NCBI GenBank assembly: GCA_017610265.1
Contig: JAFCCH010000004.1
Coordinates: forward strand, 1 to 36,210
From: Nitrososphaerota archaeon
Lineage (GTDB): Archaea > Iainarchaeota > Iainarchaeia > Iainarchaeales > GCA-2688035
Length of the DNA stretch: 36,210 bases
Direction: 5' to 3'
The position numbers and the translations under genes are program-made. Below are positions 11,801 through 33,781 of this stretch, piece by piece; positions within the stretch are counted from its first letter, which is position 1; the number at the start of each line of letters is the position of its first letter. The notes under the pieces are model-generated. The model had not been told where the DNA came from and did no database searches. It was given only the letters and a program-made list of their open reading frames with translations.

Positions 11801-13340
11801 TCTTCTAAGTGATGAAGAAGGTAATTTCCAGTCCAGTGAAAACTTTGGCCTTTCAGCAGGTGAAAAAGTAGTCGTTACCGCCAGTGCCGCCGGCTTTAGA
11901 AATACTTCGGTTGAAGTGCCGGTCAAATGGGGTTCCTTTTTTGACCCAAGATACAACTGCATTGAGGTGCCTTCAGGTGATGGAGAAATCCTTACATTTT
12001 CAAACATTGCACCTGGCTCAACAAAGTCTTTCGAAATTGTAAACGGCTGCCTTATGCCGGTTGAAATAAAGTTCAACAGTAAGCTTGAACTTTCCCCTCA
12101 AATTCTGCAAATTCCTGCAGGGGGCAAGGCAACAGCAAGATTCAAGGCCGACAATCCTGAAGGAGGCGAAGAAGTTTATTTGGGACAGTATCCAATTTAC
12201 CTGAAAGCAAAGTTTGATGGAGACGTAAGGTTTGTCAATGCAATAAAGGTTCTTGTCATAATTGAGGATTCAACAGGAAGCTGTTTTGGCATCGACAAAA
12301 CAAGTTTTGACCTTGTTTCAGAGTCACAGGATACAGGGACAATTTCAAACAACTGTGCTGTTCAATTCAATGATGCTTGGGCGCCGGAACTTGCCATTAA
12401 TTCTTTTAAAGCAATAATAAACAGAACAGACCTGGAAATTCCAGGTCTTACTACTTTCAAATGGGGCGTTAAGGCAAAAATGTTGCTTTCAAAACCAATC
12501 ACTGTGCAAACCCAGGAAACAGCGTCTAAAGTATGGGAAAATTTTTACATTCCAACCGGTTCAAATGCAGGCCAAACTTTTAATGACACTGTTACAGTCA
12601 ACATTGGCTCACAATTTGTGAAAAACGTTGATGCCCTGCAATTTGATTCAGTTGCGCACCACATGGGCGGCGGCTTTTTTGACCAAGACCCTGATTATTC
12701 AGACAGCGGTTACATAAAGAGCAACACTATTACAATAAACTCTGGTGGCATTGGCTATCCAATCAACGTGCCTTGTAACCAAAACGGCTGTGATTGGGGT
12801 AATGTAGAAAGAAGATTGTATAATGGAAAGCAGTGCCATGACCTTTCCCCCTGTTGGTTAGGAAGTTTCGAGGTTCCATTAGGCCAGTCCTTTGAAACAA
12901 TTGACAGCATAACTGTGCCAATTTACAACAAAGAAAACGAAATGTTTTTGTTCTTCAATCTCCAAGGAGACTCTGTTAGCCAGGGATATGATTTTGACCT
13001 CAATAAGTCAGAACTGGAATATGACTTTGGCTCATTTACTTCTTCAATTGTGCCAATCAGAAACCTTGGCTTTGTTCTTGGAAGGATCGATATAGATCTG
13101 TCAGAGGAATTCCAAGAGCAAAGAAATTTCATAGAGGACGCAAATTTAATGGTCTACACTGACAATCCTGAAGTAGAGGCGTGGCTTGTCGGCACCACTG
13201 TTTACGGAAAATATGTTGGCGTTGACACAAACGAAAATCCGGAAGAAACACCTTTCGCAATAACAAACCTTTTCTTGAACACAACTCAATATAATGTGAT
13301 TTTGGTTGATGATTATGTAAGTGAATTGAGGAGTGGCTGA
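8853..13340 (+). CDS. Giant single-pass membrane-anchored surface protein with repeated carboxypeptidase-regulatory-like/Ig-like domains (1495 aa)
   Basis: About 60-aa cytosolic N-terminus, then TM SFILIIVLLLSLLAVFTFIF, then repeated modules such as LRVVTETGSPIEGVSIFVSF, INVLVKDHTGKGIGNVAVKLF and IIKGTVKSPSGNPIEGASIKIYLP. Confidence 0.88.
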   Translation: MNDLLENLLENPLVRRSVKTVKKGYFFLEDGYYTVLDRVSEYTPIYKIIDPIDNVFPSFILIIVLLLSLLAVFTFIFSQGPLTSSLRVVTETGSPIEGVSIFVSFQDTTFDLETDDWGETNLLIPWRETEAEITFSKEGFDGLTKTITLKADELSEFVLSKTTIQFKESKYTIYVVDSETNRLIKNRVQLSFTCSTGVPGPATITKANSEFKDIVPGANCGTLITKASAEGFQTKESTAITRTPTYIKLEKTQTTSAINVLVKDHTGKGIGNVAVKLFDSDNAIANQITTSASGAASFNEVQPGTYTVTASHSDGRYIEKTGIIATVGQTKTVALSLQELLVGKKIFLKFTDSESKQAVGDATVLIYANNKLLDSKTSDNSGRIEKMVDESIDSFLVVVTHYNYVTKIVSNVIILDAAATEPQNVQLQKASAQNSGKIVATVSDYETGESVENAYVYLHHSDFPKVILNYPYNFSNADGNVLFERLPAGNYSAKAKQDNAEGKSEPKDLILGSTISLPIVLVLTEGDIEVKVINKMSKEPISGVELIFFDSFTDSIFQSGTSDEEGEFESMPFKSNKIIYVKASKEGYLNSLSLPIPIIAKSTQKLELELTSKGDIDVTKDISIDFAGLFSDQAATKKENKLESGQSYYLKLNLRLPKDANYSALNHHLRLGPETVAGQPDTLPFQDYIARLTGHAFSSPQSTTVFSSCYNKASIFSNPCPASFASKQSNTLWQKVLGQTVYSLVLKFETEPNLADETEIEFRYKAKAVVNGAEFETDEFLKSFKIGETICTPKVDCPPVVWRLWLQDPDGNTMLLNNFSEEDKQGLIINSDYALSYELHNTSGYDLESGLEFLAKIPPSTVSIAGQGESYTVFSNFLFAADTVSDNGSPVGFQTLQESDFLQMALRFNSGRGLNDEKTLFFAVEAAGDLELSVSPSSLIPNDATQIIKGTVKSPSGNPIEGASIKIYLPSPEPGQPRQLFEVLLSDEEGNFQSSENFGLSAGEKVVVTASAAGFRNTSVEVPVKWGSFFDPRYNCIEVPSGDGEILTFSNIAPGSTKSFEIVNGCLMPVEIKFNSKLELSPQILQIPAGGKATARFKADNPEGGEEVYLGQYPIYLKAKFDGDVRFVNAIKVLVIIEDSTGSCFGIDKTSFDLVSESQDTGTISNNCAVQFNDAWAPELAINSFKAIINRTDLEIPGLTTFKWGVKAKMLLSKPITVQTQETASKVWENFYIPTGSNAGQTFNDTVTVNIGSQFVKNVDALQFDSVAHHMGGGFFDQDPDYSDSGYIKSNTITINSGGIGYPINVPCNQNGCDWGNVERRLYNGKQCHDLSPCWLGSFEVPLGQSFETIDSITVPIYNKENEMFLFFNLQGDSVSQGYDFDLNKSELEYDFGSFTSSIVPIRNLGFVLGRIDIDLSEEFQEQRNFIEDANLMVYTDNPEVEAWLVGTTVYGKYVGVDTNENPEETPFAITNLFLNTTQYNVILVDDYVSELRSG

Positions 13341-17572: not shown

Positions 17573-20500
17573 ATGGAGAATCCCTTGGAGCATCCTCTTG
17601 TTAAAGAGGCAATTGAAAAAATAAAAGGAGGCTATTTCTTCCTCGAAGATAAATATTACTCAGTCCTGGACAAAATCAACAAAACTGTTCCAATTTACAA
17701 GGTAATTGACCCGATTGACAAGGTAGTGCCTAGCTTTGCTTTGCTTATCGGCTTTGTTTTCTTCATCTTGCTTTTATTCATTTTAATGTCGTTTTCAAGT
17801 GTTGTTTCATTTGCAACACTGCAGGTTGTTGATAGCAGGGGCGAGCTTGTTGACGGAGTCTCAATTGACCTAACCTTAAGCGGCCAGACAAAGCTTCTTT
17901 CAACTGATGATTGGGGCGAAGCCCAGGTTGAAATCCCCGGCGTTGCTGTGAAAGTTGATGCAATATTTTCAAAAGATGGTTTTAGAGACCTTGAAAAAAC
18001 CTTAACCCTGACTGCTGACGAAATAACCAGTGTAACCCTTCAAATTAAAGATATCACTTTAGATCCTGGCACAATAGGTGGCTCAAAAACAATTAAGGTT
18101 GTTGACAACAGCACAAACAGGCTTATCACCAAAGAGGTTACTGTTTCATTTGAGTGCAGTGGCGGTGCATTGTCTCCCCAGACCCAAACAGGTTCAACCG
18201 GTGAATTTGAGGTTAGCCAGCCAAGCAATTGTTCAACTCTAATTGCAACAGCTGAAGCAGACGGTTACACCAAGAAAAGCAAGACACTTGCTTCAAAGGT
18301 AAATTATATTATTCTTACAACAAATGTTGCAAACACAACAGGAAGCATAACCACAATAGTAAAAGACACTTTGGGAGAAGCCATTCCTGATGTTGTTGTA
18401 AGGGCAATTGATGAAGAGCGCAATGTTGAAGCTGCAACCTCAAGCACAAGCCTTGGCGGATCTGCAAGCTTGCAGGGCCTTAACCCAGGCGATTACACTG
18501 TTTCAATAATTGCCCCTGATGGAAGGACTGCTCAAAAAACAGGGGTTTCAGTCAATGTTGGGCAAACAACAACTGTAAACCTTGAACTGCCTTTGAAAAA
18601 CCAGGCAGACATAAAGAAGATTTATTTAGAGTTGATTGAGCAGGGTACCACAGACCCTGTTTCAACTGCACAGGTTTTCATCTACCATGAAGATGTCTTA
18701 ATTGACAGCACTACAAGCGATAGTTTGGGCATTGTTAACAAAAGCCTGACTGATCCTGGCACGGGATATCTTCTTGTTATAACACACTCTGATTTTATCA
18801 CAAAGATTGAGCCAAACATTCCTTTGAAAGAGCTCTATGATTCAAATCCAATTTCTGTTCCAATGGTTAGGGCGCAAATTGAGGATCCAAATCCAACAAG
18901 TGCGGAAATAATTGCAACCGTTGTTGACGAAGACCTTAAGCCTGTAAAAGACGCCCTGATAAGCATTTATGATTCAGAATATCCAACCATTCCTCTAAAG
19001 GCGCCTCCTGGCATAACATTGGAGGGCGGAACATTTACTTTTGTAAATCTTGCACCTGGTTCATATATTGCAAAGGCAAGGGATGAAGACGGCAAGGCCG
19101 AGGGCGAATCTGATTTGGGCACAGTTGCTGCCGGAAGCACTCTAGAATTGCAGGTAATTCTTGTGCTTGGCTCAGGCACTGTTGAAGCCAAAATCTTTGA
19201 TGATGATTCAGCCGACGACACTCCTATAGTGGGAGCAGGTGTGGACTTCATTGACGCTGCTGACGGAACAACTGTTTTGGCAAGCTGCATAACAGATGCT
19301 GACGGAAAATGTGAATCAGAACCAATTCCTGCCGACAAATTTGTTTATACAAAGGCAAGCGCCACAGGCTTTCTTCCGAGCTCTTCGGTTTCAGTTGTTG
19401 ACATTGTCAATAAGGGAACTGCAAAGATTTCAGTAGGGCTTATTCATGAAAGCAGTTTGCCTCCGGGTATTGGCGATATTGATTCAAGGTTTAAGTATTT
19501 CTGCGAAGACCCTGATTGTGACAAGATTGCAACCAGAATAAAATCTGATGCAATCGGAATCAAAACATACTTTGCAAAGTTTGAACTTCTTTTTACAAAA
19601 GACGAAGCTTATACTGGAACAGTGCAGCATGTAAGAATTGGCCCTGACTCTGAAATTGATTTGCCTTTGCCAAACGATTACAAAGCAAAAATTCTTGGTG
19701 CAACAGGTCCGTTCCTAAACGATGCTCCTTTGTCAAACTGCTGGAATAATGATCCAGACGACCCTTTTATGGAACCAACTGCTCCTGTTGACTGCAGTAC
19801 AGGCCTTGACGCCAAACAGGTAAACCTTTATTATCCTGACTTTGAAGGAAAGCAGATTATTCCACTTGTCGTTGAATTTTCAGTCGAGCCAGGTCTTGAG
19901 GATGGAACAAGGCTTGAAATGCATTACAAAGCCAAAACAACAACAGGCGAAACAGAGGTTGTTACTGCAAACAAGGTAAAGTATTTCCTCATAGACGAAG
20001 TATTTTGTGACGGCACAAATTTTTCCTGGAGCTTTGTTTTAGAAAATCCTGACGGTTCAACCACTGTGCTTGACCGGGATTCGGATGCAGAAAATCCCCT
20101 CGAAATGAATGAAAGCTACAATATTTTTTACCAAATTTATAATTGCAGCAATAGAAATTTTACCCAGGCAAACGTAACCTTTGAAAATGATCCGCTTGAA
20201 TTGGAAGCGGTTTCCTTAACAGCGGGCTCTCCATATGATTTCGGGCCGTCAAATGCTTTCTCTGCTGAAAATTTTGCTTTCCAGAACGAAACAGAAATTT
20301 CTCACAATTTGCCTGTCTTTTCAGTAACCGAGGCTCCGTCTGTCGATCTAAGATTTTTCATTGGCACAGAATCCCTAAATAGTGAGGAAATTCTTAATTT
20401 CAAAATTGAAAGCAACAAAAATCTTACTGTAACTCATACGCCTATTAATCTTCCTTCCTTTGGAAACCCTGACCTTTCAGGAAAAGTTGCCGATGCCCTT

Positions 20501-23500
20501 GATACTGTTCCTGGATTGGAGAACGCCCTTATATCTTTGATAATTGGCGACACTACGAGGACAACGACTACCAATGAGGCAGGCCAGTTTAATATTGAGA
20601 ACATTGAACAGCTTGACAGCATCACAAGTGTTACTTTGCAGGTTAGAAAAGCAGGTTTCAAAACCTTTGAAAAAGAGATTGATGTTGGCAGTGTTATAAT
20701 TGTGCCAAATGCCAGCCTTGACTGCCTTGAAATTGAAAAAGACGCTTCACCTGATGTAATCATAAACTTTGTGAGAAATGTTTCCGGTTCTGGCACATTT
20801 ACCCTGAAAAGTGACTGCTCTGCCGAAACAGTTGTAATCCTGCAGTCAGAGCTCAAAGTGAGTCCAAGTGACGAATTTACTTTGGCGGCCGGGGCTTCAA
20901 GGGAAATTACTGTTGAGGCTGAAACCATTGCCAACACTGCCAAAATGACTATTGGAGAATATGGTGTTTCAATTATGGCAAGATTTGCAACAGATGATCC
21001 TCTAGCAGGTTTTGCAGGTCCGCTTAAAACAGCAAGAATTTATGTAACAGACCCTGACAGTTGTTTTAGGTTGGCAGACCCATCTACTCCAAGTGATCCA
21101 GGGGTAATGAAATCCAGTTATGATATAAGGGACGGCCTTGACGAAGGCATTATTGTAAACGAATGCTTTGTCTACTTTGAGGATTTGACCATGCCACGCC
21201 TTGACAAACTGCAGGATTTTTCTGCAGCAGAGGGTGCATTTTCACTTCTTTACGAGCCGCTTACTCTGAACCCTGGCGAGGCAGTTGAAAAACAAATAAT
21301 TCTTGATGCTAATCAGGTTGAGTTTAATGAAGACAACCGTTTTATTTTTGACGTTGTTAACAACAGTGGTTATGTCTTTGTTGACTGGGTTGACTTCTTT
21401 ATGACTGACGCAGAGCACACTTCTGGTGTGAGACACATGGTTTTGGGCCAAACTCACAGAAATGTCTGGTCAAATTACACCTCAGAACTTCCTTACACCC
21501 CTTTCCAAAATGACTCTTCTGGTTCACCGGAGCCATTGCCTAATCCGACTCATCCTGTTGTTGACAATTTGGGATGGGTTGACACTGAAACATATTACAA
21601 AGCAGGCAGCCTCTTTGCAGATGAACTTACTCCACAACCAATCTGGCAGGGGCAGCATAATGTCTGCAACAATTTCCTCGGAGGTTTTGACAGCACTTTT
21701 GGAACATGCAGTGTTGACAACTATTACAGAGGTGCAAATTTGACTCCTTACATTGTTGGAGACGTAATAAACAAGGTTGCACTTGAAATCCCTGAAAGCA
21801 GAACACCTACAACAAATCTTAGTGCCATAAGATGGCATTATACAAGAACAGACCAAAGCCATGATGGTAAGGTTGACTTTAAGGTTAGAAACAACAATTT
21901 AATGGGTGAATCATATGCCTTGATTGAGGTTGAGGACACAACCGGAACATTTTTTGTACCAGACGATGGCGGAACAGCTTCTGGTGATATTGTTGTTAAC
22001 TGGACTCTTTCAAAGAGAGGGGTTTTGCGCAACACAAGCAATCTGCTTGACCAGTTAAGCGAAACAGTGACCATTGCACCAGGCGAGGTTCTTGGAGTTT
22101 CAGTTGAGTCTGGCTTATCAAATGTTTTTGGCAGCATTGCGTCTGTTTACAGTGCACTGAAACCTTCTGCCAGCAAGGAGCTTATTGAGATTAGAATTAC
22201 AACTTCTGCTGGTCAGCCGCCTATACTTATGGAAAATGGTGACGGTAACCTAATGTTCTACGAATATTCTAATGGAATGTGGAGCTCTCCTTCTATGTTC
22301 GATATGGAGTTCCCTGGTGAAACAGATGTCATTGCCTTTGGAACAATTCATGCAACAGATGTTATTGCAATAAGGAATAATAGTGACCGAGATGTTTCAT
22401 TTGACCAAATAACCCTAAATTATTTGACAAAGGAAGCGCAAAGTATTGAGATTCACAGTGGGGAGGCAACTGTTCCTCTTGGAGAAAGCTTAATTTCCTT
22501 TGAGGTGCCTCCAACAGGCGGAATTGACCTTCCTCCAGGAGAATATGATTACACAGAATACCTTATTGAAGAGTCTTCCTCTGAGGCAATTGCCTACTTT
22601 GAAAATACTCTTATGTCAACTTCTTCAGACCCCTATGCTTCTGGTGAAAACATTATAGTTGCAATTTCGTCTCCTACAGAGGGTCGAAATACAATGACCG
22701 AACAATTCCACATAAGGTTGATTGGCCAGGATCAGGGCCAGTGCATTGGCCAAGGCGGACTTACTGGAAGTACCGGCGTTGGCTCAAAGCCAAAGGTAAT
22801 GTTTAATTGGGACTGGGAATCAATTGACATCGACACCTGCAATTCAGACAATCTTAACTTTATTTACTGTGATCCAACGCAGTTCACAGTCTCTTTGATG
22901 AAGAGGCTTGAGCTAATGAGGACACTTGCAGAGGAAGACCTTGGAGCTAATTTGCTTACTCTTAGGGAATTGCAGGAATTCGATGTCTACTTAATAGAGG
23001 ACGCTTATGTTGATGACTTTAGAAACGATTTTGTTGATTTCTTCCAAGGAAAATTCCTTTCAGAGGATTCAGGTGAATGGAATCTTTACCTTCAGGATGC
23101 GGATAGGTTTGTGATTGACACAAGTGCAGCTCACTTGCCATTAGATCCTCCTACTACTCCTGAATCCAAGGTAGTTTCAGCAGGCTTGCATGAGGTTTAT
23201 ATTGAGCTTGACTTTGACCAGGACTTGTTTGATTTTTTTTATATCCAGGATCAAACAGATTTGATTGCAAACATCACTGTTTACATCAGCAAGGTTTCTG
23301 ATCCAATAATTAAGAGCCCGTTTTACTACATGCCGTTTAACGGTAACCTTGGCCAGACAGATATAGGCGAATTCCAAAGGGATGGTTACGGCCTTGCATT
23401 TAGCAACAATGATGAACCACTTGTGCTTATTTCCACAATTGGAGGAAGTTTATACAAAACAGATTCTCCTGGAGCAAGCACAGGACGGAAAACAATTGGA

Positions 23501-24232
23501 ACAGTGAAAGAAAATGACTTTACACAAATAAATAAGGTTCAAAGGGGACTGATTATGCAGGTTGCACAGGACCAAAGCCAGGTGAACTTTGCGCCCTCAA
23601 TTGCAACTCCTGTTCTTGCCGAAATGATTCCAAAAGACGGCAAAGTAGAGTCCTATTATTATCTGAGAGACGATACAGAGGCAATTATTCCGCAATCTGG
23701 CTTTTTGAACCTTTGGAATGGTGCAGGCTCTACAATGAGACCTATGGAGGGTGTATGTGCAGATTTCTATGGCAGCCAGTTGCAATTCAGAATTCAGGAC
23801 AGGAGCCCTCTTGTTGGAAGCTGCCCACAGAATGTTACAGGGGTCTTTGGCTTTACCTATGATCCTGCAACCGAAGGCGAACAGCTTTATTTTGAATCAG
23901 TGTTTTACACTCCTGAAGACCAGATTATTCATTTGAGGAAGAGTTGTGAAAACAATTCTACCTTTTACTCGCCTAATCTTGTGCATGGAACAGATACATT
24001 ATCCACCCCACTTGCACTAAGCATTGCAGACAGCAAAACAAAGGTTGCGTCAATGAATGATGTCATTAACCTCATTGCCGAGGAATATGTCTGTGTTTCA
24101 GCCGACACTCAAAACTTTTCATTCTGGTGGAACCCGCAGAAGGTTTTGGAAGAGCTTGATGATGTTAAGTTAAGCATTAATTCAGACTGGGAATCAGGCA
24201 TGTCCTGCACTGTTTCAACAGTGGAATCTTAA
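17573..24232 (+). CDS. Giant single-pass membrane-anchored surface protein (2219 aa) with repeated carboxypeptidase-regulatory-like/Ig-like domains
   Basis: N-terminal HPLVKEAIEKIKGGYFFLEDKYYSVLDKINKTVPIYKVIDPIDKVVPSF parallels the 1495-aa protein; TM FALLIGFVFFILLLFILMSF; C-terminus homologous to the 795-aa protein. Confidence 0.9.
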   Translation: MENPLEHPLVKEAIEKIKGGYFFLEDKYYSVLDKINKTVPIYKVIDPIDKVVPSFALLIGFVFFILLLFILMSFSSVVSFATLQVVDSRGELVDGVSIDLTLSGQTKLLSTDDWGEAQVEIPGVAVKVDAIFSKDGFRDLEKTLTLTADEITSVTLQIKDITLDPGTIGGSKTIKVVDNSTNRLITKEVTVSFECSGGALSPQTQTGSTGEFEVSQPSNCSTLIATAEADGYTKKSKTLASKVNYIILTTNVANTTGSITTIVKDTLGEAIPDVVVRAIDEERNVEAATSSTSLGGSASLQGLNPGDYTVSIIAPDGRTAQKTGVSVNVGQTTTVNLELPLKNQADIKKIYLELIEQGTTDPVSTAQVFIYHEDVLIDSTTSDSLGIVNKSLTDPGTGYLLVITHSDFITKIEPNIPLKELYDSNPISVPMVRAQIEDPNPTSAEIIATVVDEDLKPVKDALISIYDSEYPTIPLKAPPGITLEGGTFTFVNLAPGSYIAKARDEDGKAEGESDLGTVAAGSTLELQVILVLGSGTVEAKIFDDDSADDTPIVGAGVDFIDAADGTTVLASCITDADGKCESEPIPADKFVYTKASATGFLPSSSVSVVDIVNKGTAKISVGLIHESSLPPGIGDIDSRFKYFCEDPDCDKIATRIKSDAIGIKTYFAKFELLFTKDEAYTGTVQHVRIGPDSEIDLPLPNDYKAKILGATGPFLNDAPLSNCWNNDPDDPFMEPTAPVDCSTGLDAKQVNLYYPDFEGKQIIPLVVEFSVEPGLEDGTRLEMHYKAKTTTGETEVVTANKVKYFLIDEVFCDGTNFSWSFVLENPDGSTTVLDRDSDAENPLEMNESYNIFYQIYNCSNRNFTQANVTFENDPLELEAVSLTAGSPYDFGPSNAFSAENFAFQNETEISHNLPVFSVTEAPSVDLRFFIGTESLNSEEILNFKIESNKNLTVTHTPINLPSFGNPDLSGKVADALDTVPGLENALISLIIGDTTRTTTTNEAGQFNIENIEQLDSITSVTLQVRKAGFKTFEKEIDVGSVIIVPNASLDCLEIEKDASPDVIINFVRNVSGSGTFTLKSDCSAETVVILQSELKVSPSDEFTLAAGASREITVEAETIANTAKMTIGEYGVSIMARFATDDPLAGFAGPLKTARIYVTDPDSCFRLADPSTPSDPGVMKSSYDIRDGLDEGIIVNECFVYFEDLTMPRLDKLQDFSAAEGAFSLLYEPLTLNPGEAVEKQIILDANQVEFNEDNRFIFDVVNNSGYVFVDWVDFFMTDAEHTSGVRHMVLGQTHRNVWSNYTSELPYTPFQNDSSGSPEPLPNPTHPVVDNLGWVDTETYYKAGSLFADELTPQPIWQGQHNVCNNFLGGFDSTFGTCSVDNYYRGANLTPYIVGDVINKVALEIPESRTPTTNLSAIRWHYTRTDQSHDGKVDFKVRNNNLMGESYALIEVEDTTGTFFVPDDGGTASGDIVVNWTLSKRGVLRNTSNLLDQLSETVTIAPGEVLGVSVESGLSNVFGSIASVYSALKPSASKELIEIRITTSAGQPPILMENGDGNLMFYEYSNGMWSSPSMFDMEFPGETDVIAFGTIHATDVIAIRNNSDRDVSFDQITLNYLTKEAQSIEIHSGEATVPLGESLISFEVPPTGGIDLPPGEYDYTEYLIEESSSEAIAYFENTLMSTSSDPYASGENIIVAISSPTEGRNTMTEQFHIRLIGQDQGQCIGQGGLTGSTGVGSKPKVMFNWDWESIDIDTCNSDNLNFIYCDPTQFTVSLMKRLELMRTLAEEDLGANLLTLRELQEFDVYLIEDAYVDDFRNDFVDFFQGKFLSEDSGEWNLYLQDADRFVIDTSAAHLPLDPPTTPESKVVSAGLHEVYIELDFDQDLFDFFYIQDQTDLIANITVYISKVSDPIIKSPFYYMPFNGNLGQTDIGEFQRDGYGLAFSNNDEPLVLISTIGGSLYKTDSPGASTGRKTIGTVKENDFTQINKVQRGLIMQVAQDQSQVNFAPSIATPVLAEMIPKDGKVESYYYLRDDTEAIIPQSGFLNLWNGAGSTMRPMEGVCADFYGSQLQFRIQDRSPLVGSCPQNVTGVFGFTYDPATEGEQLYFESVFYTPEDQIIHLRKSCENNSTFYSPNLVHGTDTLSTPLALSIADSKTKVASMNDVINLIAEEYVCVSADTQNFSFWWNPQKVLEELDDVKLSINSDWESGMSCTVSTVES

Positions 24233-24243
24233 CCGGTTTTCTG

Positions 24244-25293
24244 ATGTTGCCAAATTTTTTTATTTTAAATGTTCTATGCATTTGCCTTTTGGGTTTTCTT
24301 ACAAGCTTTTCCGATTTGAAAAAGGGCCTGATTCAAAACAAAATTGTTTTTCCTGCAATCCTACTCGCAATTCTTTTAAATTTCCTAAATGGATTTTACT
24401 TCCTGACCTTTTTTGCAAACGGCTTTTATGCATTTCTCTTTGGCTTTATTCTGTGGACTGCAAGGCTTTGGTCTGCAGGTGATGCAAAGCTCTTTCTTGC
24501 GCTCGCCCTTCTCTTTCCCCTTTCCTTTTATCCGACTTCGACCTTTCCAAGCCTAACAATTCTTTTGAATTCCTTTGTCCCGGCTTTTATCTTCTTACTT
24601 GCAATAGTTTTACTAAGGACAACAACAAAGCAAAAGTTTGAGGCCTTAAAGGAAGCATTTACTCCGTTTGTCCTAGCCTCTGTTGCGGTCTACTTTTTTT
24701 CATTTTACTGGCTTTTGGACCTCTTTTTTTCCTTTGTTCCGGTAACCCTTGACCTTTTCAGTACAGCCATCCTTCTATTTGTGGTAATTTCTTTTGTGGA
24801 ATTTTTCCTTCCAAAAAAATCCCTTTACTTTTTTGCAGGCCTTTCGGTCTTGTTCTTAATTTTCAGGCTTGACTCTGTCCTTAATCCAAACTTTCTTGCA
24901 TTCTTTATTTCATTCTGGCTTGGGGCAATCTTCCTTCTCTTCTTTATCTTAAGGCTGGGTTTTTCCTGTTTTGGAAATGCTGTCAAGGTCGAAGACCTAA
25001 AGCCAGGCATGGTCTTGCTTGAAACAGTTTTTGAAAGAGAAGGCAAAATTGAGAAAAAAAAGCCATTGCTTCCCTCCTTTGTAAACATCATTTATGAGAT
25101 AAAAGAAAAACCGTTTGTTGAGTCAGGGCCAAAGGGGTTAAACGAGGCAGATTTAAAATTGCTTAAGGAAAAGAAGTCAATGGCAAAAGTAAATTTTGAT
25201 GGCATCCTTGTTCAGGAAACCCTGCCTTTTGCCCCTATAATCTTTGTCGGAACAATCCTTTCCTTTTTCACTGCCTTGTTTGTAGTCTTCTAG
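24244..25293 (+). CDS. Archaeal A24-type prepilin peptidase-like membrane protein
   Basis: Polytopic; TSFSDLKKGLIQNKIVFP and SAGDAKLFLALALLFP match the two catalytic Asp regions of A24 peptidases; C-terminal VKVEDLKPGMVLLE segment. Confidence 0.8.
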   Translation: MLPNFFILNVLCICLLGFLTSFSDLKKGLIQNKIVFPAILLAILLNFLNGFYFLTFFANGFYAFLFGFILWTARLWSAGDAKLFLALALLFPLSFYPTSTFPSLTILLNSFVPAFIFLLAIVLLRTTTKQKFEALKEAFTPFVLASVAVYFFSFYWLLDLFFSFVPVTLDLFSTAILLFVVISFVEFFLPKKSLYFFAGLSVLFLIFRLDSVLNPNFLAFFISFWLGAIFLLFFILRLGFSCFGNAVKVEDLKPGMVLLETVFEREGKIEKKKPLLPSFVNIIYEIKEKPFVESGPKGLNEADLKLLKEKKSMAKVNFDGILVQETLPFAPIIFVGTILSFFTALFVVF

Positions 25294-25340: not shown

Positions 25341-25667
25341 ATGGAATCAATTGACAATTTCGAGCTTGATGAAGGCAAAAAACTTGCCCTTGTTTCAATA
25401 AATGCCAAGATTTATCCCCTACCAGTCATCTTTTCTGCCTGCTATTCTTTGATGGACAAGGCGTTTGTTGTAATAGACGGCTCTCCTGAAACAGAAATAG
25501 TTGTTTCTCTAAGACCAAGGAATGATGAAAAGCTTGAGGAAATTGCCCGTCAATTCAACGACGAGCTTTTGAATTACGCGGTCAACAATGAGGAAAGTAA
25601 GAAAACCGAAAAGTTAAGAGACGCACTTGTAAAAGACGCTTTTGCAGGTCATTCAAAAACTGATTAA
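25341..25667 (+). CDS. hxsD: HxsD-like small protein 1 (His-Xaa-Ser system)
   Basis: VSINAKIYPLPVIFSACYSLMDKAFVVIDG...EEIARQFNDELLNYAVNNEESKKTEKLRDALVKDAFAG resembles the HxsD pattern (F-x-N-E-L-L ... IRxxIxxxAF); first gene of the rSAM cassette. Confidence 0.7.
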   Translation: MESIDNFELDEGKKLALVSINAKIYPLPVIFSACYSLMDKAFVVIDGSPETEIVVSLRPRNDEKLEEIARQFNDELLNYAVNNEESKKTEKLRDALVKDAFAGHSKTD

Positions 25668-25669
25668 CC

Positions 25670-25921
25670 ATGCACCAGATAAAATTTAACAAAGAAGAAA
25701 ACAGTGCAGAGCTTGACCTAAGTAGTTTTTTCTATCCAATGCACATTCTGCAGCAGGCAGGTCTTGAATTTGAAAACTTTGCAAAAATTTCAGTCAAGCA
25801 AAAGGATTCCCGCAACCTTGTAATCATTTCCCCCAAGGGTAATGGCAATGTACAAGAGCTTGCTCTTCACTTCTGCAATTTTGCACTTGGCCTGAAAAGG
25901 GAGCTGGGAGAGCATGCCTGA
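25670..25921 (+). CDS. HxsD-like small protein 2, truncated paralogue of the preceding ORF
   Basis: LDLSSFFYPMHILQQAGLEFENFAKISV...LVIISPKGNGNVQELALHFCNFALGL aligns by eye with the first protein (shared YP-x(2)-I, A-x(2)-F/L, hydrophobic spacing). Confidence 0.55.
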   Translation: MHQIKFNKEENSAELDLSSFFYPMHILQQAGLEFENFAKISVKQKDSRNLVIISPKGNGNVQELALHFCNFALGLKRELGEHA

Positions 25922-25945
25922 ATCCAAGAGCATGCCTGAATCCAA
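25910..25945. repeat. Perfect 18-bp tandem duplication (gagcatgcctgaatccaa x2) over the start codon of the hxsB-like gene
   Basis: Direct reading; encodes MPESKS-MPESKQ and so creates two in-frame ATGs. Confidence 0.95.
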
Positions 25946-27326
25946 ACAGGAAAAAATGCCAAAGTTTGAGCAAAACAAGGTTTTTTCCCACAAGCTTTTA
26001 GACGGGCGAGTTCTGCTAATAACAGAGCTTGGAAAAATTACCTCTTTAACAGAAGAAGAATTCAAAAATTTCAAGGAAGGCAAGATTCCAAAGTTTGTTT
26101 TCCAAAAGCTTGAGAAAGGTCACGCAATTGTAACAAAACACAATAGACCTTACGTTGTCGACGACTACAAATTGAGATATGGCCATGTTTGCGACGGCGT
26201 CTCATTGCACATTATAAACCCAACCATGAGATGCAACCAAAACTGCCTTTACTGCTATGCAAATTCTTTTCCCCTCCAGGCAAAAGGGGTCGACATGGAT
26301 GAAAAAACTGCCAAAAAAGTAATTGACTTTATTTGGGAGGGCCCGAAAAAAGAAATTGTAATAGAGTTTCAGGGCGGCGAGCCCCTTGCAAACTTTCCAA
26401 TAATTGAATTTATTGTCAACTATGTAAAAGGCAAGAAGGGCAAGAAAGTGCATTGGAGAATTGTTTCAAATCTTACAATGATGGACGAAACAATTGCCTC
26501 TTTTCTTGAAAAAAATTCAATTTTTGACATTTGCACTTCCATTGACGGCCCCAAAGAGGTTCATAACAAGAACAGACCTTGGTCTGGCGGAAACAGTTTT
26601 GGAAAAGCAGTCCACTGGATTAACTGCCTTAAGCAAGATTATTCCTTCAAAAGCATTGGCGCACTCTGTACTGTAACCAAGAACAGTTTGCCCCATGCAA
26701 AAGACATTGTAAACACTTACGTTGAATTGGGCCTGCCAGACCTTACGGCTGTTCCAATCAGGCGAATAGGCCTTGCAGAAAAAAACTGGGGCAAGATTGG
26801 TTACAGGGGAGAAGCCTATTTTGAATTCTGGAAGCAGGCACTTGAAGCCTGTATTGAAAAAACAAAAGCAGGCCAAAAAATAAGCGAGCAGATTTCAGTT
26901 TTGAGCCTTAGCAAAATGAACCGGTTTGAGCCAAACTATCACACTTGTTTTTCAAAGCCATGCGGTGCCGCCCTAATGCAGGCATCTTATCAGCCAAACG
27001 GGGATGTCTTTTCATGTGATGAGGCAAAAGCAGAGCCCCTTTTCAAAATAGGCAATGTAAAGCAGCCATACAAACAGGTTTTTACCTCTCCTGCTGCACT
27101 AAACCTTGTTTCCCTTTCATCAGGTCTTGGATTTGCCTGCAATGAATGCAAATTCACAGGATTTTGCAGATTTTGCCCTGTTCTAACCTATTGCACGCAG
27201 GGAAACCTTATCCCAAAGCTTGCAATGGACGAAGATTGTAAATTGAAAAAAAAGCAGTTTTCATATCTTCTTGAAAAGCTTTTCTCGGAAGACAGCCGGG
27301 TTTTCGAGCAATGGCTTAAAGGGTAA
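25914..27326 (+). CDS. hxsB: Radical SAM/SPASM peptide maturase, HxsB-like
   Basis: INPTMRCNQNCLYCYANS (CxxxCxxC), EFQGGEPL, and C-terminal SPASM cysteines CGAALMQASYQPNGDVFSCDEA...CNECKFTGFCRFCPVLTYC...DEDC. The N-terminal region before the rSAM domain (FSHKLLDGRVLLITELGKITSLTEEEFKNF) is HxsB-like. Confidence 0.85.
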   Translation: MPESKSMPESKQEKMPKFEQNKVFSHKLLDGRVLLITELGKITSLTEEEFKNFKEGKIPKFVFQKLEKGHAIVTKHNRPYVVDDYKLRYGHVCDGVSLHIINPTMRCNQNCLYCYANSFPLQAKGVDMDEKTAKKVIDFIWEGPKKEIVIEFQGGEPLANFPIIEFIVNYVKGKKGKKVHWRIVSNLTMMDETIASFLEKNSIFDICTSIDGPKEVHNKNRPWSGGNSFGKAVHWINCLKQDYSFKSIGALCTVTKNSLPHAKDIVNTYVELGLPDLTAVPIRRIGLAEKNWGKIGYRGEAYFEFWKQALEACIEKTKAGQKISEQISVLSLSKMNRFEPNYHTCFSKPCGAALMQASYQPNGDVFSCDEAKAEPLFKIGNVKQPYKQVFTSPAALNLVSLSSGLGFACNECKFTGFCRFCPVLTYCTQGNLIPKLAMDEDCKLKKKQFSYLLEKLFSEDSRVFEQWLKG

Positions 27327-27367: not shown

Positions 27368-27586
27368 ATGGCAAAATTTCCTGAAATAAAGAAAACAATT
27401 TCCTCTTACATCGGTGAAGAAAACGGAAGAATTACAAAGCAGACTGTGCTAACCCTTGGAGCAATAATGGCTGGAGCAGCCCTTTCAACACTAAAGCTCA
27501 AAAACGTGGGTGGCGCAACATTGCACCAACATAGCCATATGTCTGCAAGGCCTCATAGCTCTCACAGCTCACATGGCTCATATTAG
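27368..27586 (+). CDS. Candidate modified-peptide precursor with C-terminal His-Xaa-Ser repeats (HxsA-like, 72 aa)
   Basis: MAKFPEIKKTISSYIGEENGRITKQTVLTLGAIMAGAALSTLKLKNVGGATLHQHSHMSARPHSSHSSHGSY: HMS, HSS, HSS, HGS motifs, the last three contiguous. Lies between two rSAM genes. Confidence 0.82.
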   Translation: MAKFPEIKKTISSYIGEENGRITKQTVLTLGAIMAGAALSTLKLKNVGGATLHQHSHMSARPHSSHSSHGSY

Positions 27587-27617: not shown

Positions 27618-28598
27618 ATGGGCTTAAAAAAACCTTTGGAAATAAAGCTTCAAATTACAGACTCCTGTAATTTTAATTGCGACTTCTGCTTCAACAGCCA
27701 GGATTCAAAAACAAAGGGTTCAATCTCAAAAGATAACGCTGAAAAAATAATTTCAAAAGTTGCAGAGGAAGGAATTAAAGGTTTGAGAATAACCGGAGGC
27801 GAACCATTTCTCCACAAGGACCTTTTTTCAATTCTCTCCCACGCAAAAAACAAGGGTCTTAAGACAACGCTTAATACAAACGCCGCCTTGTTCAAGGAAA
27901 ATGATGTGAAAAAAATTGCAGGCCTTGTTGACCAAGTTCTTGTCTCGGTCCATTCCCTTAAAATAAATTCAAACACGGTAAAGACCATAAACAATTTTTC
28001 TGAACAGGGTCTAAAACCAAGAATTGCAACAATTCTTTCAAAGGAAAACATTAACAATCTTGAAAAATTCCACGACCTTGTTTCAAGACTGCCTTTCTCC
28101 CAATGGGTTTTGCTAAGGCAGATTCCAAACGAGTTTAACTGCAAGCCGGTTTCAGGCCTTGACATGCAAAGGGCAGTTGAAAAAATTGAATCATTCAATT
28201 TGCAAAGAAAAGAAAAAGATTTTTTTTTAATTGAGAATGCCCTTCCCTTTTGCTGTTGGCATTCTGAAAGGGTTGACAAAGTTTGCCTTGGAGGCATTCA
28301 TGAAGACGGGCACAGCAGCCTTTTTGTCAATCAGGAAGGATTAATCAAACCAAGCTATTTCCTTGACCCTGTTTTGGGAAATGCTTTTGAAACAAGTTTT
28401 TTGGACGCCTGGAAATCTGATTTTATGAAAAGTATGAATTCACTTGAATTTATTGGAGAAGAATGCCATGAATGCAGCCATGTTTTGAAATGCATGGCAG
28501 GTAGCAGATTTTCTGCCCTTTTCGTAAACAAGTCTCTTTACGCCCTTGATCCCCTTGCAAAACCAGCTATTTTCTTGCAAAGGGGAATAAATAAATAG
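27618..28598 (+). CDS. hxsC: Radical SAM protein, HxsC-like
   Basis: LQITDSCNFNCDFCFN (CxxxCxxC), GLRITGGEPFLHKDL, C-terminal ECHECSHVLKCMAGSRFSA auxiliary cysteine motif; follows the HxS peptide ORF. Confidence 0.78.
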   Translation: MGLKKPLEIKLQITDSCNFNCDFCFNSQDSKTKGSISKDNAEKIISKVAEEGIKGLRITGGEPFLHKDLFSILSHAKNKGLKTTLNTNAALFKENDVKKIAGLVDQVLVSVHSLKINSNTVKTINNFSEQGLKPRIATILSKENINNLEKFHDLVSRLPFSQWVLLRQIPNEFNCKPVSGLDMQRAVEKIESFNLQRKEKDFFLIENALPFCCWHSERVDKVCLGGIHEDGHSSLFVNQEGLIKPSYFLDPVLGNAFETSFLDAWKSDFMKSMNSLEFIGEECHECSHVLKCMAGSRFSALFVNKSLYALDPLAKPAIFLQRGINK

Positions 28599-28629: not shown

Positions 28630-30645
28630 GTGTATTTTTTGGTTGATCAAACTCCGCAGGGAAACATTCCGCCAGAAGGCGTAGCTGAGTTAAAGAATGC
28701 CATTAACAGGGCTGAATCAAGGAGAGAGAGAAAAACGGCTATTATTGCTGTTGTTATAGTGCTTGCACTAATCATTATTGGTGGAGTCCTATTCTTTTTG
28801 TTGCTTCCACCACCGCTGGAAGAGCCTTGTGTAAATGGTTTGCTTGACGAGGGCGAAGAAGGAATTGACTGCGGAGGGATATGCGCAACTGCGTGTGAAA
28901 AGCCGCCAGAACCTCCTCCTGAATTTGTAGATTCTGCTTACCGCCTGCCTGCTTCAATTTCAGATATTGCGCTTGACCTTGCAAATGACCGCATCTATGT
29001 CTTGGACGAAATAAGGCACAGGATTTTGGTTTACGATTCTCAATTTAACCACATTGGAAACTTTGGAGAAGAACGAGTTAAGACAGCTGAGGGCTGGAGT
29101 TATTTCAGCGGCGGGCTTGACGACGAAAGGCTTCTTTTCCCTGCATCAATTTATTTGGCCAATGACAAGCTTTACGTGCTTGACCGGGTTCCAAGAATAC
29201 AGGTCTTCTCAAACGAGCTTGTTCTTGAACAAACTCTTGATTTTTCAAACCAGGCTGTTGAGGCCTTGCCAAAAGTGCCTGACACTCCAAACACCGATGG
29301 AGGTAGAGCCTATATTCTTGTTTCTAATTCTGGTGAAATAACTATTTCAGAGGAAGTAAGCAATGCGGTTGCATCCTTTGATTCCTCTTTTGGATTTAAT
29401 TCTGTTACAACCACTGGAACCTCTGCCGGAGAGGTAAACATTCCAAGGCAGATTGCATTTGGACCGCAAGGTAACATTTATTTGGCTGACAGTGGAAATT
29501 CAAGGATTCAGGTTTTGAACAAAGAGCTTGGCTTTGTAAAAACCATTTCAGAAAATCTTGTTTTGCCTGTCGGAGTTGCGGTTGCAGACAGTGGAGAAAT
29601 ATATGTTCTTGATTCAGGTGACAGCATGCTCAAGGCATTTGACTCTGCAGGAAATTTCGTTAAACAAACAGGGGGTCTTGGAAAAGGCGAAGGCCAGTTC
29701 TACAATCCAATTGTTGTAAAGCTTGACTCAGAAGGAATGATTTATGTTGTTGAACAAGGCAATTCAAGAATTCAGGTTTTTGACAAAAACCTTAAATTTG
29801 TTGAAATGATTGAGGGCCTTGAAAGAACCTTCAACCTTTCTTTCACTCCTTTCTATCCTGCAATTGCGCCAAACGGGGACATTGCATTTTCAGATGTACT
29901 CAATCACAAGGTATTTGTCTTTGATAAGGATTACGAGCTGAAAAAGGTTCTTGGCGGAAGAGGCTTTGGAAACAACCAGCTCAATGCACCAAAAGGCCTT
30001 GCCTTTGATTCAACAGGAAAACTCTTTATTTCGGATTCGGGAAACAGGCGTATTCAAATATTTTCATCAGATTACACTTATCAAAGCACAATAACCCACA
30101 AAGAGCTGATATGGCCTCTTTCAATCTCTGTTTCTGAGGAAGCCAAGGTCTTTGTGGTAGACGACAAACACAAGAAAGTTCTTGTTTTCAATCAGTCAGG
30201 AATGCTTTTGGATGAAATAGGTAAAGCAGAAGGCATTACCTTGCCTCTCGGAGTTCTTGCACAGGACGGAAAGATTTACATTACTGATGACAAACTGCAG
30301 ACAATTGAAATTTTAGATTCGTCTTTTAACAACATAGAAAGTGTTGGCGGAATTGATGACGCTCTTGGTTTCGACGTTGAGTTCAACGAAAGCCTTGGAA
30401 TTGACAGCAAGAACAGGCTGCTTTTCGCAGACAACAGGAACAGGGTAGTAATTGCCTATGACTTAACCCTTAAAACATTCTCAACCTTTGGAGGCTTTGG
30501 AAACGCTTTGCAGGAACTTAGCATTTTGGAAGTTGCAACAAGAGGCGGAGTAACTGCTGTTGCTGACATGGAATCTCATAGGGTGAAAATCTTTGACGCC
30601 AATGAAAAGGAAATAGGCGAACTTACAATTGCAGACCTTGCCTAA
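28630..30645 (+). CDS. Membrane-anchored NHL-repeat beta-propeller protein
   Basis: TM AIIAVVIVLALIIIGGVLFFLLL, CVNGLLDEGEEGIDCGGICATAC motif, then many NHL units (GNIYLADSGNSRIQVLN, GKLFISDSGNRRIQIFS). Start is GTG at 28630; a TTG at 28639 is an in-frame alternative. Confidence 0.88.
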   Translation: MYFLVDQTPQGNIPPEGVAELKNAINRAESRRERKTAIIAVVIVLALIIIGGVLFFLLLPPPLEEPCVNGLLDEGEEGIDCGGICATACEKPPEPPPEFVDSAYRLPASISDIALDLANDRIYVLDEIRHRILVYDSQFNHIGNFGEERVKTAEGWSYFSGGLDDERLLFPASIYLANDKLYVLDRVPRIQVFSNELVLEQTLDFSNQAVEALPKVPDTPNTDGGRAYILVSNSGEITISEEVSNAVASFDSSFGFNSVTTTGTSAGEVNIPRQIAFGPQGNIYLADSGNSRIQVLNKELGFVKTISENLVLPVGVAVADSGEIYVLDSGDSMLKAFDSAGNFVKQTGGLGKGEGQFYNPIVVKLDSEGMIYVVEQGNSRIQVFDKNLKFVEMIEGLERTFNLSFTPFYPAIAPNGDIAFSDVLNHKVFVFDKDYELKKVLGGRGFGNNQLNAPKGLAFDSTGKLFISDSGNRRIQIFSSDYTYQSTITHKELIWPLSISVSEEAKVFVVDDKHKKVLVFNQSGMLLDEIGKAEGITLPLGVLAQDGKIYITDDKLQTIEILDSSFNNIESVGGIDDALGFDVEFNESLGIDSKNRLLFADNRNRVVIAYDLTLKTFSTFGGFGNALQELSILEVATRGGVTAVADMESHRVKIFDANEKEIGELTIADLA

Positions 30646-30657
30646 TTCTGGGACTGC

Positions 30658-31989
30658 CTAATTCTTTGGAAAGAATTTCCTTGATACAGAATCGTAAAAC
30701 AAAATTCCTTTCCTGCTAAGCTTCAGGCTTTTTTCTGATTGCTTTACAAGGCTAAGACTTTCAAGCAGGGCAATTGTTTTCCCAAACTTTTCTTCAAGGG
30801 AGAGGGCAAACTTTTTTTTGAAAATATTTTTGTCAACTCCTTTTTTGCAATCTTTGAGACCAAGGGCAACAAATCTAATCATTTGGTCTTCCATGCTTAG
30901 CTTTTTTCCAACTGCGCAGGCCAAACCGCTTTCTTCAACATCTTTCAAATACTTGTCTGTTGGAAAAACATTGTTGTAATCCCATTTATTAAAGAAGGAA
31001 CAAGAGCTTGGGCCAAAGCCAAGGTATTCTCCACTGGCCCACTGGTTTTCAAGAAAAAGCATTCTCTGCCCTTTTTTCACAAACTGGTATGGGAAAAGTT
31101 GTTTATAGCCAAGTCCTTCCATCTTGTTCAAGAACATTGAATGCATTTCAATAAGCTCTTTGTCTGAAGCAAATTCCTCTTTGTTTCTTGCAAAAAAAGC
31201 AGTGCCTTCTCTCACCCTTAAGTCAGATGCAGTAACTGACTCTGGCTGAATTGCCTCAACCTCATTCAACGAATTTTTCCAGCCTTCAATGCCTTGCTTT
31301 GGCAGCCCATAAATTAAGTCAATGTTAATGCTTTCAAAGCCAGCTCTTCTGGCCTCCTTAATTGAATGCAGTGCCTTTTCCTTGTCATGGTTTCTGTTGC
31401 ATTCTTTCAAAACTCTGTCATTAAAGTCTTGTATTCCAATGCTCATCCTGTTGAAATTCTGCCTTAGCAAAACAAGCTTTTCAAAGCTGATTGTTTCAGG
31501 GCTTGATTCAATGCTTGCCTCAACCTTTTTTGGAATCCTAAAAGAGCCTCTTAGAAAAAGCATCAATTCATTCAAGGAATTTGCTTCAAGAGAGGTTGGG
31601 GTTCCGCCTCCAAATAGGACACTGCTTGCCTCAAGTTCTTTTCCAATAAGCTGGCTGTAAGTAGAAATTTCCCTCTGAATTCCCTTCAAAAAAGCCTCAA
31701 TTTCGCCTTTTTTTCCAATCCCCTGCTTGAAGTAGTGGCAATAGCTGCAAATGCTTGAGCAAAAGGGAATGTGCAAGTAGAAGGCAAGTTCCCCCACCTT
31801 TTTTCCACTTTTTTCAAGATCTTTAGCGAATTCTTCCCTGTCAAATGGGGACATTTGGTCAGAATCAGGGTATCTGTAAACAAACAAATGGCTTGTGCTT
31901 TTTCCAATTCCTTCCTTTTTCAGCCTGTCCAAAAATGAGTCATCCATGCCTAAAGCAAGCCTCATACCAGATTTTAACACTTTCTTCAC
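30658..31989 (-). CDS. HemN/HemW-like radical SAM protein
   Basis: AFYLHIPFCSSICSYCHYF (HemN-type CxxxCxxC), VLFGGGTPTSLE, MSIGIQDFNDRVLKECNR, INIDLIYGLPKQ. GTG start as called; ATG at 31965 is an alternative. Confidence 0.88.
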   Translation of the reverse strand: MKKVLKSGMRLALGMDDSFLDRLKKEGIGKSTSHLFVYRYPDSDQMSPFDREEFAKDLEKSGKKVGELAFYLHIPFCSSICSYCHYFKQGIGKKGEIEAFLKGIQREISTYSQLIGKELEASSVLFGGGTPTSLEANSLNELMLFLRGSFRIPKKVEASIESSPETISFEKLVLLRQNFNRMSIGIQDFNDRVLKECNRNHDKEKALHSIKEARRAGFESINIDLIYGLPKQGIEGWKNSLNEVEAIQPESVTASDLRVREGTAFFARNKEEFASDKELIEMHSMFLNKMEGLGYKQLFPYQFVKKGQRMLFLENQWASGEYLGFGPSSCSFFNKWDYNNVFPTDKYLKDVEESGLACAVGKKLSMEDQMIRFVALGLKDCKKGVDKNIFKKKFALSLEEKFGKTIALLESLSLVKQSEKSLKLSRKGILFYDSVSRKFFPKN

Positions 31990-32009
31990 TTAACTTTATC
32001 GGTGGGTTT

Positions 32010-32984
32010 GTGAAAATACTTTCGCCTCTTTCAAAGCCTTTTGAGGCAGGGCCTCTTGCAGAAGCAGGGGCAACTGAATTCTATTGCGGAATTGTAACAA
32101 AGGAATGGGAGGACAAATTTTCCTATATTGCCTCATCTAATTTGAGGCATGACAAAGTTGCAAATTTTTCCTCTTTCAAAGATCTTTCACTTGCAGTTGA
32201 AGCAGGGTCTGAACACAATGTTCCTGTCTTCTGCGTTTTCAATGCGCACTTTTACAGCGAGAAGCAAATGGCCCTTGTTCTAAATCATGTTGGGCAAGCA
32301 ATTGACGCAGGGGTCTCAAAAATAATTGTTTCAGATCCTGTTTTTATTTCAATGCTGAAAAAACAGGGCTTTAAGACAGACATTGTATTAAGCACAGCAA
32401 ACCCTGTGTTTAATTCTGCTTCACTTGGATTTTTTAAAAAATTTGGGATTCAAAGAATTGTGCTCCCAAGGCATCTAACAGTTAAAGAAATTGAGGGCCT
32501 TGCCAAAAGTGCAAAAAAGCTTGGCCTTGAATTGGAAGCATTTGTTCTCAATGCACTTTGTCCTTACATTGATGGCCTTTGTACCCTGCAGCACCTTGGA
32601 AAAAATTCAGACTTTGTTGAGGCAAGCGAACTTGCTTGCAGAATGCCATTTAAAACAACCTGTTCTGGAAAAGCCTGCAATGAAACTGGCGGTAATTCTT
32701 CTTCCCTGAAGGCATGCGTCTGGCAGAATACAGAGACAACAAGCTGCGGGCTTTGCGCCCTGAAGTCTTTTGAAAAGGCAGGCATTAATTCCCTAAAAAT
32801 TGCTGGCCGTGGAAACAGCTTTGACAAAAAGCTTGCTGATGTGAAAATGATTAAGCATGCCCTTTCATTACTTGACTTGCCTGAAGAGGAATTCAAAAGT
32901 GAAATGCATGGTCTGTTTTTTAAGGCAAACAAGCAAAGATGCGATTTCAAATATTGTTATTATCCAAATAAGGGGTTGTTGTAA
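32010..32984 (+). CDS. Peptidase U32-family protein, UbiU-like
   Basis: GTG start gives VKILSPLSKPFEAGPLAEAGATEFYCGI. U32 features: VFNAHFYSEKQ, RIVLPRHLTVKEI, LCPYIDGLC, TTSCGLCAL, LKIAGRGNSFDKKLADVKMIK. Confidence 0.82.
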   Translation: MKILSPLSKPFEAGPLAEAGATEFYCGIVTKEWEDKFSYIASSNLRHDKVANFSSFKDLSLAVEAGSEHNVPVFCVFNAHFYSEKQMALVLNHVGQAIDAGVSKIIVSDPVFISMLKKQGFKTDIVLSTANPVFNSASLGFFKKFGIQRIVLPRHLTVKEIEGLAKSAKKLGLELEAFVLNALCPYIDGLCTLQHLGKNSDFVEASELACRMPFKTTCSGKACNETGGNSSSLKACVWQNTETTSCGLCALKSFEKAGINSLKIAGRGNSFDKKLADVKMIKHALSLLDLPEEEFKSEMHGLFFKANKQRCDFKYCYYPNKGLL

Positions 32985-33781
32985 TGGAAAAAGTGCTTGC
33001 AGTGGAAAACATTTCTTCTCTTGAAAGACTTTTTTCGAAAGAATTTTCAAGAGTTTACTTTGGAGCAGAAACCTGCGAACAAAAAATTCCGTCCGAAGTA
33101 GATGTCAAAAAGGCAATTGCCTTCTGCAAAGAAAACAATGCAGGTTTTTCTCTAATGACTTGCTTTTGCACAGACTTTGGCTTGGAAAAACTGCAAAAGC
33201 TTTTTCCACTTCTCTCGGAAAAAGACGAACTTATTACAAACGATTTCGGTGTTCTAAATGAGGCGTCAAAATACAATTTCAAACTTGTTGTTGGCAGGCT
33301 TTTAAATAGGCAATTTAGGGATCCTAGAATTTCCTCTTTTAAGGGAAAGTTTCCTGAGGAAATGATAAACCATCTTTCTCTAAGCCAGGCGTCCTCTCCT
33401 GGGTTCAGGGTGCTGTTAAAAGGTTTTAATGTTTCGCGAGTGGAATTTGACAATTGTTTACAGGGGATTGGAACAAGCCTGAAAGGAACATGCTTTTCCG
33501 GTTCAATCTATTCTCCAATTGTTTTTGTTGCTGCCACGAGAATGTGCCTTTTGGCAAATTCTTCAAAGCTTTCTTCCTTCAAAAAGGTTGGAATTTTTCC
33601 ATGCAGCAAAGAATGTTTGGGTAAAAGTTTTAGGCTTGACTCAAAGGATTTTTCAAAACAGCTTTTGCTTATTGGAAACGGCCTTTTCTTTGAAAACAAA
33701 AAGCTTCCTTCTCAAAAAGAGCTTGAGCAAAAGGGAATTGACAGGGTTGTTACAAATACATCGTTAATGCAATCAGAATAA
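32984..33781 (+). CDS. Second U32-family-like protein, UbiV-like
   Basis: NDFGVLN, LVVGRLLNRQFRDPRI, and cysteines RMC...FPCSKEC. TAATG overlap with the preceding U32 gene implies coupling. Confidence 0.7.
   Translation: MEKVLAVENISSLERLFSKEFSRVYFGAETCEQKIPSEVDVKKAIAFCKENNAGFSLMTCFCTDFGLEKLQKLFPLLSEKDELITNDFGVLNEASKYNFKLVVGRLLNRQFRDPRISSFKGKFPEEMINHLSLSQASSPGFRVLLKGFNVSRVEFDNCLQGIGTSLKGTCFSGSIYSPIVFVAATRMCLLANSSKLSSFKKVGIFPCSKECLGKSFRLDSKDFSKQLLLIGNGLFFENKKLPSQKELEQKGIDRVVTNTSLMQSE

Follow-up and report, generated by a model that had tools for sequence, protein, structure and literature searches.

The closest described system is the HXS system, whose families HxsA/A2/A3/A4, HxsB, HxsC/C4 and HxsD are already named in NCBIfam and for which a passage in PMC9062424 cites Haft and Basu as the source on both the motif and HxsB/HxsC. 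Our literature search returned no paper that deals with the chemistry or the function of HXS, and no published cyclophane or any other demonstrated modification in an HXS system. Chemical precedent comes from the triceptides, in which SPASM enzymes join an aromatic residue at position i to the C-beta of residue i+2; the proven bonds run from His C2 to C-beta of Ala or Arg (HaaB, YhhB) and from Phe to C-beta of Ser (MscB), His and Ser each having precedent in separate systems, and no His-to-Ser linkage is described in that source (PMC11002830). HxsB resembles the triceptide enzymes only at the superfamily level. The bicyclostreptin system HghA-D (PMC11002830) is similar in combining two radical SAM enzymes and a partner protein with a C-terminal His-rich motif, but its Ser-O to His-C-beta linkage has an i+3 geometry that is incompatible with HxS spacing, and HghD is an RRE whereas the fold of HxsD differs.

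The DPANN locus, its maturation genes and distribution

The DNA analyzed here (the window), a single contig of 36 kb, comes from a Diapherotrites (DPANN) genome of 1.28 Mb. Like the HXS system, it encodes a precursor with HxS motifs, an HxsB-like SPASM maturase, HxsD together with an HxsD-like protein, and an adjacent second radical SAM enzyme (Table 1). It differs from the described system in that it is archaeal, carries a dedicated A24 peptidase, and has a short core in which two HxS sites are fixed and the middle is variable or poly-proline. Since HxsD and the HxsD-like protein reach their curated cutoffs, HxsA and HxsB score below theirs, and the second radical SAM enzyme is neither HxsC nor HxsC4 by model, we regard the locus as a variant HXS system. 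Judged from sequence comparisons, it probably represents a DPANN-archaeal form of HXS radical SAM peptide modification in which a His/Ser core is exported. Both the relation to the known HXS system and the linked A24 peptidase had been missed in the initial annotation.

Table 1. Coordinates in the window of the genes and precursor segments discussed in the text.
Feature	Coordinates	Strand	Evidence
A24 prepilin-type (PibD/FlaK-like) membrane aspartyl peptidase, Hxs-linked clade	24244..25293	+	Pfam PF01478, E 3.6e-9
HxsD	25341..25667	+	NCBIfam TIGR03976, 50.1 bits (cutoff 50, reached)
HxsD-like protein	25670..25921	+	NCBIfam NF038315, 42.5 bits (cutoff 41, reached); syntenic in most DPANN loci
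HxsB-like radical SAM/SPASM maturase	25914..27326	+	TIGR03978, 342 bits over nearly full length (cutoff 370)
HxsA3-like precursor	27368..27586	+	NF038309, E 1.2e-12; alignment of relatives
Putative recognition segment (leader) MAKFPEIKKTISSYIGEENGRIT	27368..27436	+	P5, E18, G20 and I22 at least 90% conserved, DPANN to bacteria
Hydrophobic segment resembling a signal peptide, up to the AxA-type site (window: NVGG)	27437..27514	+	Alignment with relatives
Core ATLHQHSHMSARPHSSHSSHGSY, anchors HxHxHMS and HGSY, middle variable	27515..27583	+	H53, H57, S59 and H69 at least 90% conserved
Second radical SAM enzyme, C-terminal auxiliary-cluster Cys, HxsC position	27618..28598	+	TIGR03977, 41 bits vs 267.9
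Membrane-anchored NHL beta-propeller	28630..30645	+	Pfam NHL, E 3.8e-33; syntenic in family
HemN-like radical SAM protein, conserved neighbor	30658..31989	-	

Gene order is nearly constant within the family (SKI2 helicase, giant surface protein, A24, hxsD, hxsD-like, hxsB, hxsA, second radical SAM gene, NHL propeller, HemN-like, U32, U32), and a similar order extends across much of DPANN. Strong homologues of the NHL protein occur only in Hxs-containing genomes, and none of the six Hxs-lacking family members searched, whose genomes are incomplete, has the HemN-like gene. This gene adjoins a tandem pair of U32 peptidase-family genes (UbiU/UbiV-like); the three genes together occupy 30658-33781 in the window and are kept with the Hxs block in the family. 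The giant 2219-aa neighbor was rejected as a part of the system, as homologues of its N-terminal 400 residues were found in 34 of 36 relatives, with Hxs or without. Giant membrane-anchored surface proteins with related N-termini are encoded at 8853-13340 and 17573-24232, and genomes across the order carry multiple proteins of this kind.

HxsB-like genes were identified in 22 of 113 relatives and, within the family, in 12 of 18 members; the closest named relative is a Candidatus Diapherotrites archaeon (HxsB 70% identical). Elsewhere in the archaea such genes are found in Micrarchaeota, Woesearchaeota, Nanohaloarchaeota and Aenigmatarchaeota, and in bacteria in, for example, Elusimicrobia, Omnitrophota, Nealsonbacteria and Myxococcales. 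Matches to HxsA3 are present in 17 of the 87 genomes of the class, all 17 of which contain HxsB, and in none that lacks it (Fisher 2e-15, ignoring kinship); three more class genomes contain HxsB but gave no match, the contigs of G005 and G056 being short and the locus of G081 divergent. One record titled Falkowbacteria bacterium (L094, the same contig as G005:C148) carries a Diapherotrites-type block with an HxsB at 67% to that of the window; its genome was placed in the window's own genus, and the organism name on the public record looks wrong.

Among the maturation genes, hxsB starts within an overlap with the stop codon of the HxsD-like gene, and its product contains an invariant CX3CX2C motif (Cys 107/111/114) and seven further invariant Cys, with best PDB matches to 5wgg/5why (E 2e-49) and matches also to sulfatase-maturating enzymes. 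In the predicted model, the N-terminal ~95 residues of HxsB form a separate domain (pLDDT 90.6) with an RRE-like order of elements. A fold search with this domain gave no significant match (the first RiPP RRE stood at rank 41, TM 0.40/0.43), and searches against Pfam and PDB sequence profiles gave only chance or biased (PPR) matches. HxsD itself was rejected as an RRE, as its model (pLDDT 93.5) had no RRE match and lies nearest to the RPB11/AC19 RNA polymerase subunits (probability about 1.0, TM about 0.5, E 4.5e-3). This model weakly suggests that HxsD and the HxsD-like protein, the products of tandem genes, may pair in the manner of RPB11/AC19 subunits. In the second radical SAM enzyme, Cys 17/21/24 and 212/283/286/292 are invariant in nine orthologues; its score against TIGR03977 (Table 1) led us to reject an assignment as HxsC, and none of its orthologues was assigned by the HxsC4 model. 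In one family member (G015) the locus lacks the second radical SAM gene, none lying between hxsA and the NHL gene (L033, 5399-5476), and its HxsA has a poly-proline middle and only the two end HxS sites. Several DPANN loci encode a 610-655 aa radical SAM protein near hxsA (L042 13435-15288, L107 8517, L105 12046, L126 7297), a possible third maturase. In the f17 family of the same order, members of a ~150-aa protein family without a Pfam match are encoded directly after the HxsC4-like gene (L041 10842-11297, L043 10268-10717, L047 6508-6966).

Precursor architecture, probable export signal and linked A24 peptidase

The 72-aa product of the precursor ORF, MAKFPEIKKTISSYIGEENGRITKQTVLTLGAIMAGAALSTLKLKNVGGATLHQHSHMSARPHSSHSSHGSY, consists of a recognition segment, a signal-peptide-like hydrophobic segment with an AxA-type site and a His/Ser core. 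The hydrophobic stretch, the NVGGA motif and the HxS tail described in the initial annotation are all present. The regularity claimed for the tail, a His at every third residue, holds for the last ten residues (HSSHSSHGSY); the tail begins as HxHxHxS, where every other residue is His. The tail holds four HxS sites (H57MS, H63SS, H66SS and H69GS), and this ORF is the only one of 379 window frames (stop-to-stop, at least 40 codons) with four HxS within 24 aa. The maximum was three in 29,115 frames from 60 Markov shuffles of the window; because none of these frames reached four, the clustering is beyond chance. The NCBIfam profile NF038309 (HxsA3, 'His-Xaa-Ser repeat protein') matched the precursor with 47.5 bits, below its curated cutoff of 65, which was reached in none of the 87 class genomes, and the ORF is kept at the protein level in relatives. 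Together, the profile match, the co-occurrence with HxsB, the synteny and the alignment of relatives make it probable that the ORF encodes, as first proposed, a leader and an HxS core modified by radical SAM enzymes, and we conclude that it is a genuine HXS precursor, from a DPANN variant of this known system.

From bacteria to DPANN, precursors follow a common plan: PKIKKxIxxFLxxEEGKISK is followed by a hydrophobic segment, then by an [AVST]xA site and finally by a His/Ser core, which in many loci ends in an aromatic residue (HxSY, HGSW, HGQW). The [AVST]xA site is present in most rows of the alignment, the residues aligned to NVGG|AT of the window being VSA|QT, VAA|DT, ANA|ET and ASA|ET in relatives. 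A positive n-region, a hydrophobic h-region and an AxA-type c-region were recognized by eye from the alignment. Because loci of Delta/Myxo bacteria carry a Tat motif (TRR[DN]FL, as TRRDFL or TRRNFL) aligned to the hydrophobic segment, at the position of S/T-K in DPANN, this segment reads as a signal peptide, and together with the aligned AxA-type site this favors the earlier suggestion that it directs export. In general, export here more likely proceeds through Sec, since TatC was found in only 3 of 36 relatives and a SEC11-like peptidase in 17 of 19 genomes; Tat was rejected as the general route on the same count. The window's own genome does encode a TatC (G000:C46:2341-2937), which is absent from 33 of the 36 relatives searched.

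The A24 gene lies directly upstream of hxsD. Its product shares with the archaeal preflagellin/prepilin peptidases (A24, PibD/FlaK) the Pfam family, both catalytic Asp (D24 and D80, invariant) and membrane helices, and weakly matches their archaeal C-terminal domain; it differs in belonging to a separate, Hxs-tied clade that exists beyond the two housekeeping copies. Homologues of this linked peptidase were found in 16 of 68 relatives, all of them HxsB-containing (Fisher 1e-13, ignoring kinship). Relatives that lack Hxs have at most two A24 genes, and three occur only in Hxs-containing genomes. Of 54 archaeal HxsB loci, 42 have an A24 gene no more than 2.2 kb away (32 of the 37 with enough contig), versus 2 of 26 bacterial loci, and in a tree the Hxs-linked copies form one clade (support 100/100) apart from both housekeeping paralogues. 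Because of this Hxs-only occurrence, the linkage counts and the clade of its own, the A24 peptidase is, on comparative grounds, a real part of the DPANN locus; HxsA is a candidate substrate of this peptidase only. What is new here is a DPANN Hxs operon that includes its own A24 clade, a third paralogue in Hxs-containing genomes; none of the papers searched brought together prepilin peptidase, RiPP and leader peptide in one text.

The presence of this peptidase gives some weight to a pilin-like HxsA with a class III signal peptide, from which A24 would remove a short charged leader while the helix remained part of the mature subunit, in the membrane or in a filament; the HxS tail would lie outside and the AxA-like site would go unused. 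Such an arrangement would account for the charged leader, the hydrophobic segment, the exposed tail and an A24 peptidase gained with Hxs in genomes that otherwise hold at most two. We nevertheless consider it somewhat unlikely: an [AV]xA site is conserved after the hydrophobic segment, in bacteria, HxsA that share the EEGK leader are mostly without a linked A24, and no clean [KR]G cleavage consensus stands directly ahead of the hydrophobic stretch. G20 is conserved, but it lies several residues ahead of that stretch, also in bacteria without a linked A24.

His/Ser core and candidate chemistry

In a comparison of 12 precursors (11 from the family and G034 from the same order), the anchors HxHxH[LM]S and C-terminal HxSY are kept in all 12, and the middle reads ARPHSSHSS, KPVYEHSS, YVPHSSHSS, bare HSS, AVPPPPKPT, TPPPPPPPP or SPPPPPPPPAAA; members of the f17 family have long HxS arrays instead. 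Because the middle HSS repeats shrink, grow or give way to poly-proline, only two HxS sites, not four, are obligatory, and the exchange with poly-proline suggests that the HSS repeats may serve as a spacer. The initial proposal of up to four rings is thus not borne out at the level of conservation: many family members shorten, alter or replace with poly-proline the middle HSS, and two fixed HxS remain. The question raised with it, whether orthologues keep or lose the HxS tail, has a divided answer, as the repeats are lost in some and both end sites are retained.

The residue at +2 of His is strongly constrained. In the repeat arrays of 45 precursors (n=466) it is Ser in 409 cases, Asn in 20, Gln in 10, Thr in one and Gly in none, and the residue at +1 is Gly in 265 of 466. 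Both Ser codon families are used at +2, and therefore the constraint acts on the protein. The pattern would be explained if residue i+2 had to offer a C-beta that carries free hydrogens; it is consistent with, and not proof of, crosslinking from His to C-beta(i+2). The sequence pattern of the triceptides, a conserved aromatic residue at i followed by a residue with a C-beta hydrogen at i+2, is also found in the HxS arrays. By this analogy, we give His-to-(i+2) bonding in HXS an even chance, and the bond proposed in the initial annotation is possibly the right one.

Alternatively, the core could be an unmodified His/Ser tail that binds Zn, Ni or Cu, with the HxS spacing set by metal coordination and the radical SAM enzymes acting elsewhere on HxsA, for example on the C-terminal Tyr/Trp or the backbone. 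HxH and HxxH spacings are typical of metal ligands. An aromatic residue is conserved after HxS at the C-terminus in many loci, and noursin is a modified His peptide that binds copper (PMC10206099). This alternative is nonetheless unlikely, as it leaves unexplained both the strict coupling to two SPASM-type maturases and a +2 position that is Ser, Asn or Gln, never Gly and almost never Thr, with both Ser codon families in use. A double-glycine RiPP, cut after GG by a C39/PCAT transporter, is highly improbable: in its favor stands the GG-A junction of this one sequence, but GG is absent even from an orthologue of the same genus (SASA|ET), and no ABC transporter was found among the neighbors examined; the GG had been taken to mark the border of leader and core, and it does lie about there, at what in relatives (VSA, VAA, ANA, SASA) is an AxA-type site.

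Proposed maturation pathway

From the observed conservation, synteny, co-occurrence and conserved catalytic residues, we infer a course of leader recognition, bond formation, export and cleavage for the HXS variant. HxsA would be made with an N-terminal recognition segment, which the N-terminal domain of HxsB, aided by the HxsD pair, would bind. The His-x-Ser motifs would next be modified by HxsB and the second radical SAM enzyme, the most likely change being a bond between His and the +2 residue, at least at both invariant sites (HxHxH[LM]S and HxSY), the intervening HSS being a spacer replaceable by poly-proline. The hydrophobic segment would carry the peptide to the membrane, where signal peptidase may cut at the AxA-type site and the dedicated A24 peptidase may act as a second or alternative protease, so that the modified His-rich core would finish outside the cell. 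Its final role, for example in metal binding or surface structure, is a guess.

The reaction of the HXS system is directly testable here, owing to small substrates, natural repeat-free variants and the strong +2 constraint: the family offers the smallest natural substrates seen in our analysis, with cores that in most members are some 16 to 25 residues long and with two fixed HxS. The A24 link in turn provides a concrete candidate for processing. If confirmed, the pathway would mean that DPANN symbionts, whose biology is poorly known, make a crosslinked surface peptide. A bolder and rather doubtful extension is that the precursor is built as a prepilin and processed by its own A24 peptidase, yielding a crosslinked, rigid His/Ser rod that would either stay anchored in the cell surface or be released from it and in which poly-proline could replace crosslinked repeats. 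A different arrangement of the tail is seen in a woesearchaeal HxsA (L141 6850-7422), in which a C-terminal extension beyond the HxS array resembles, by eye, an intramolecular-chaperone (peptidase S74) tail.
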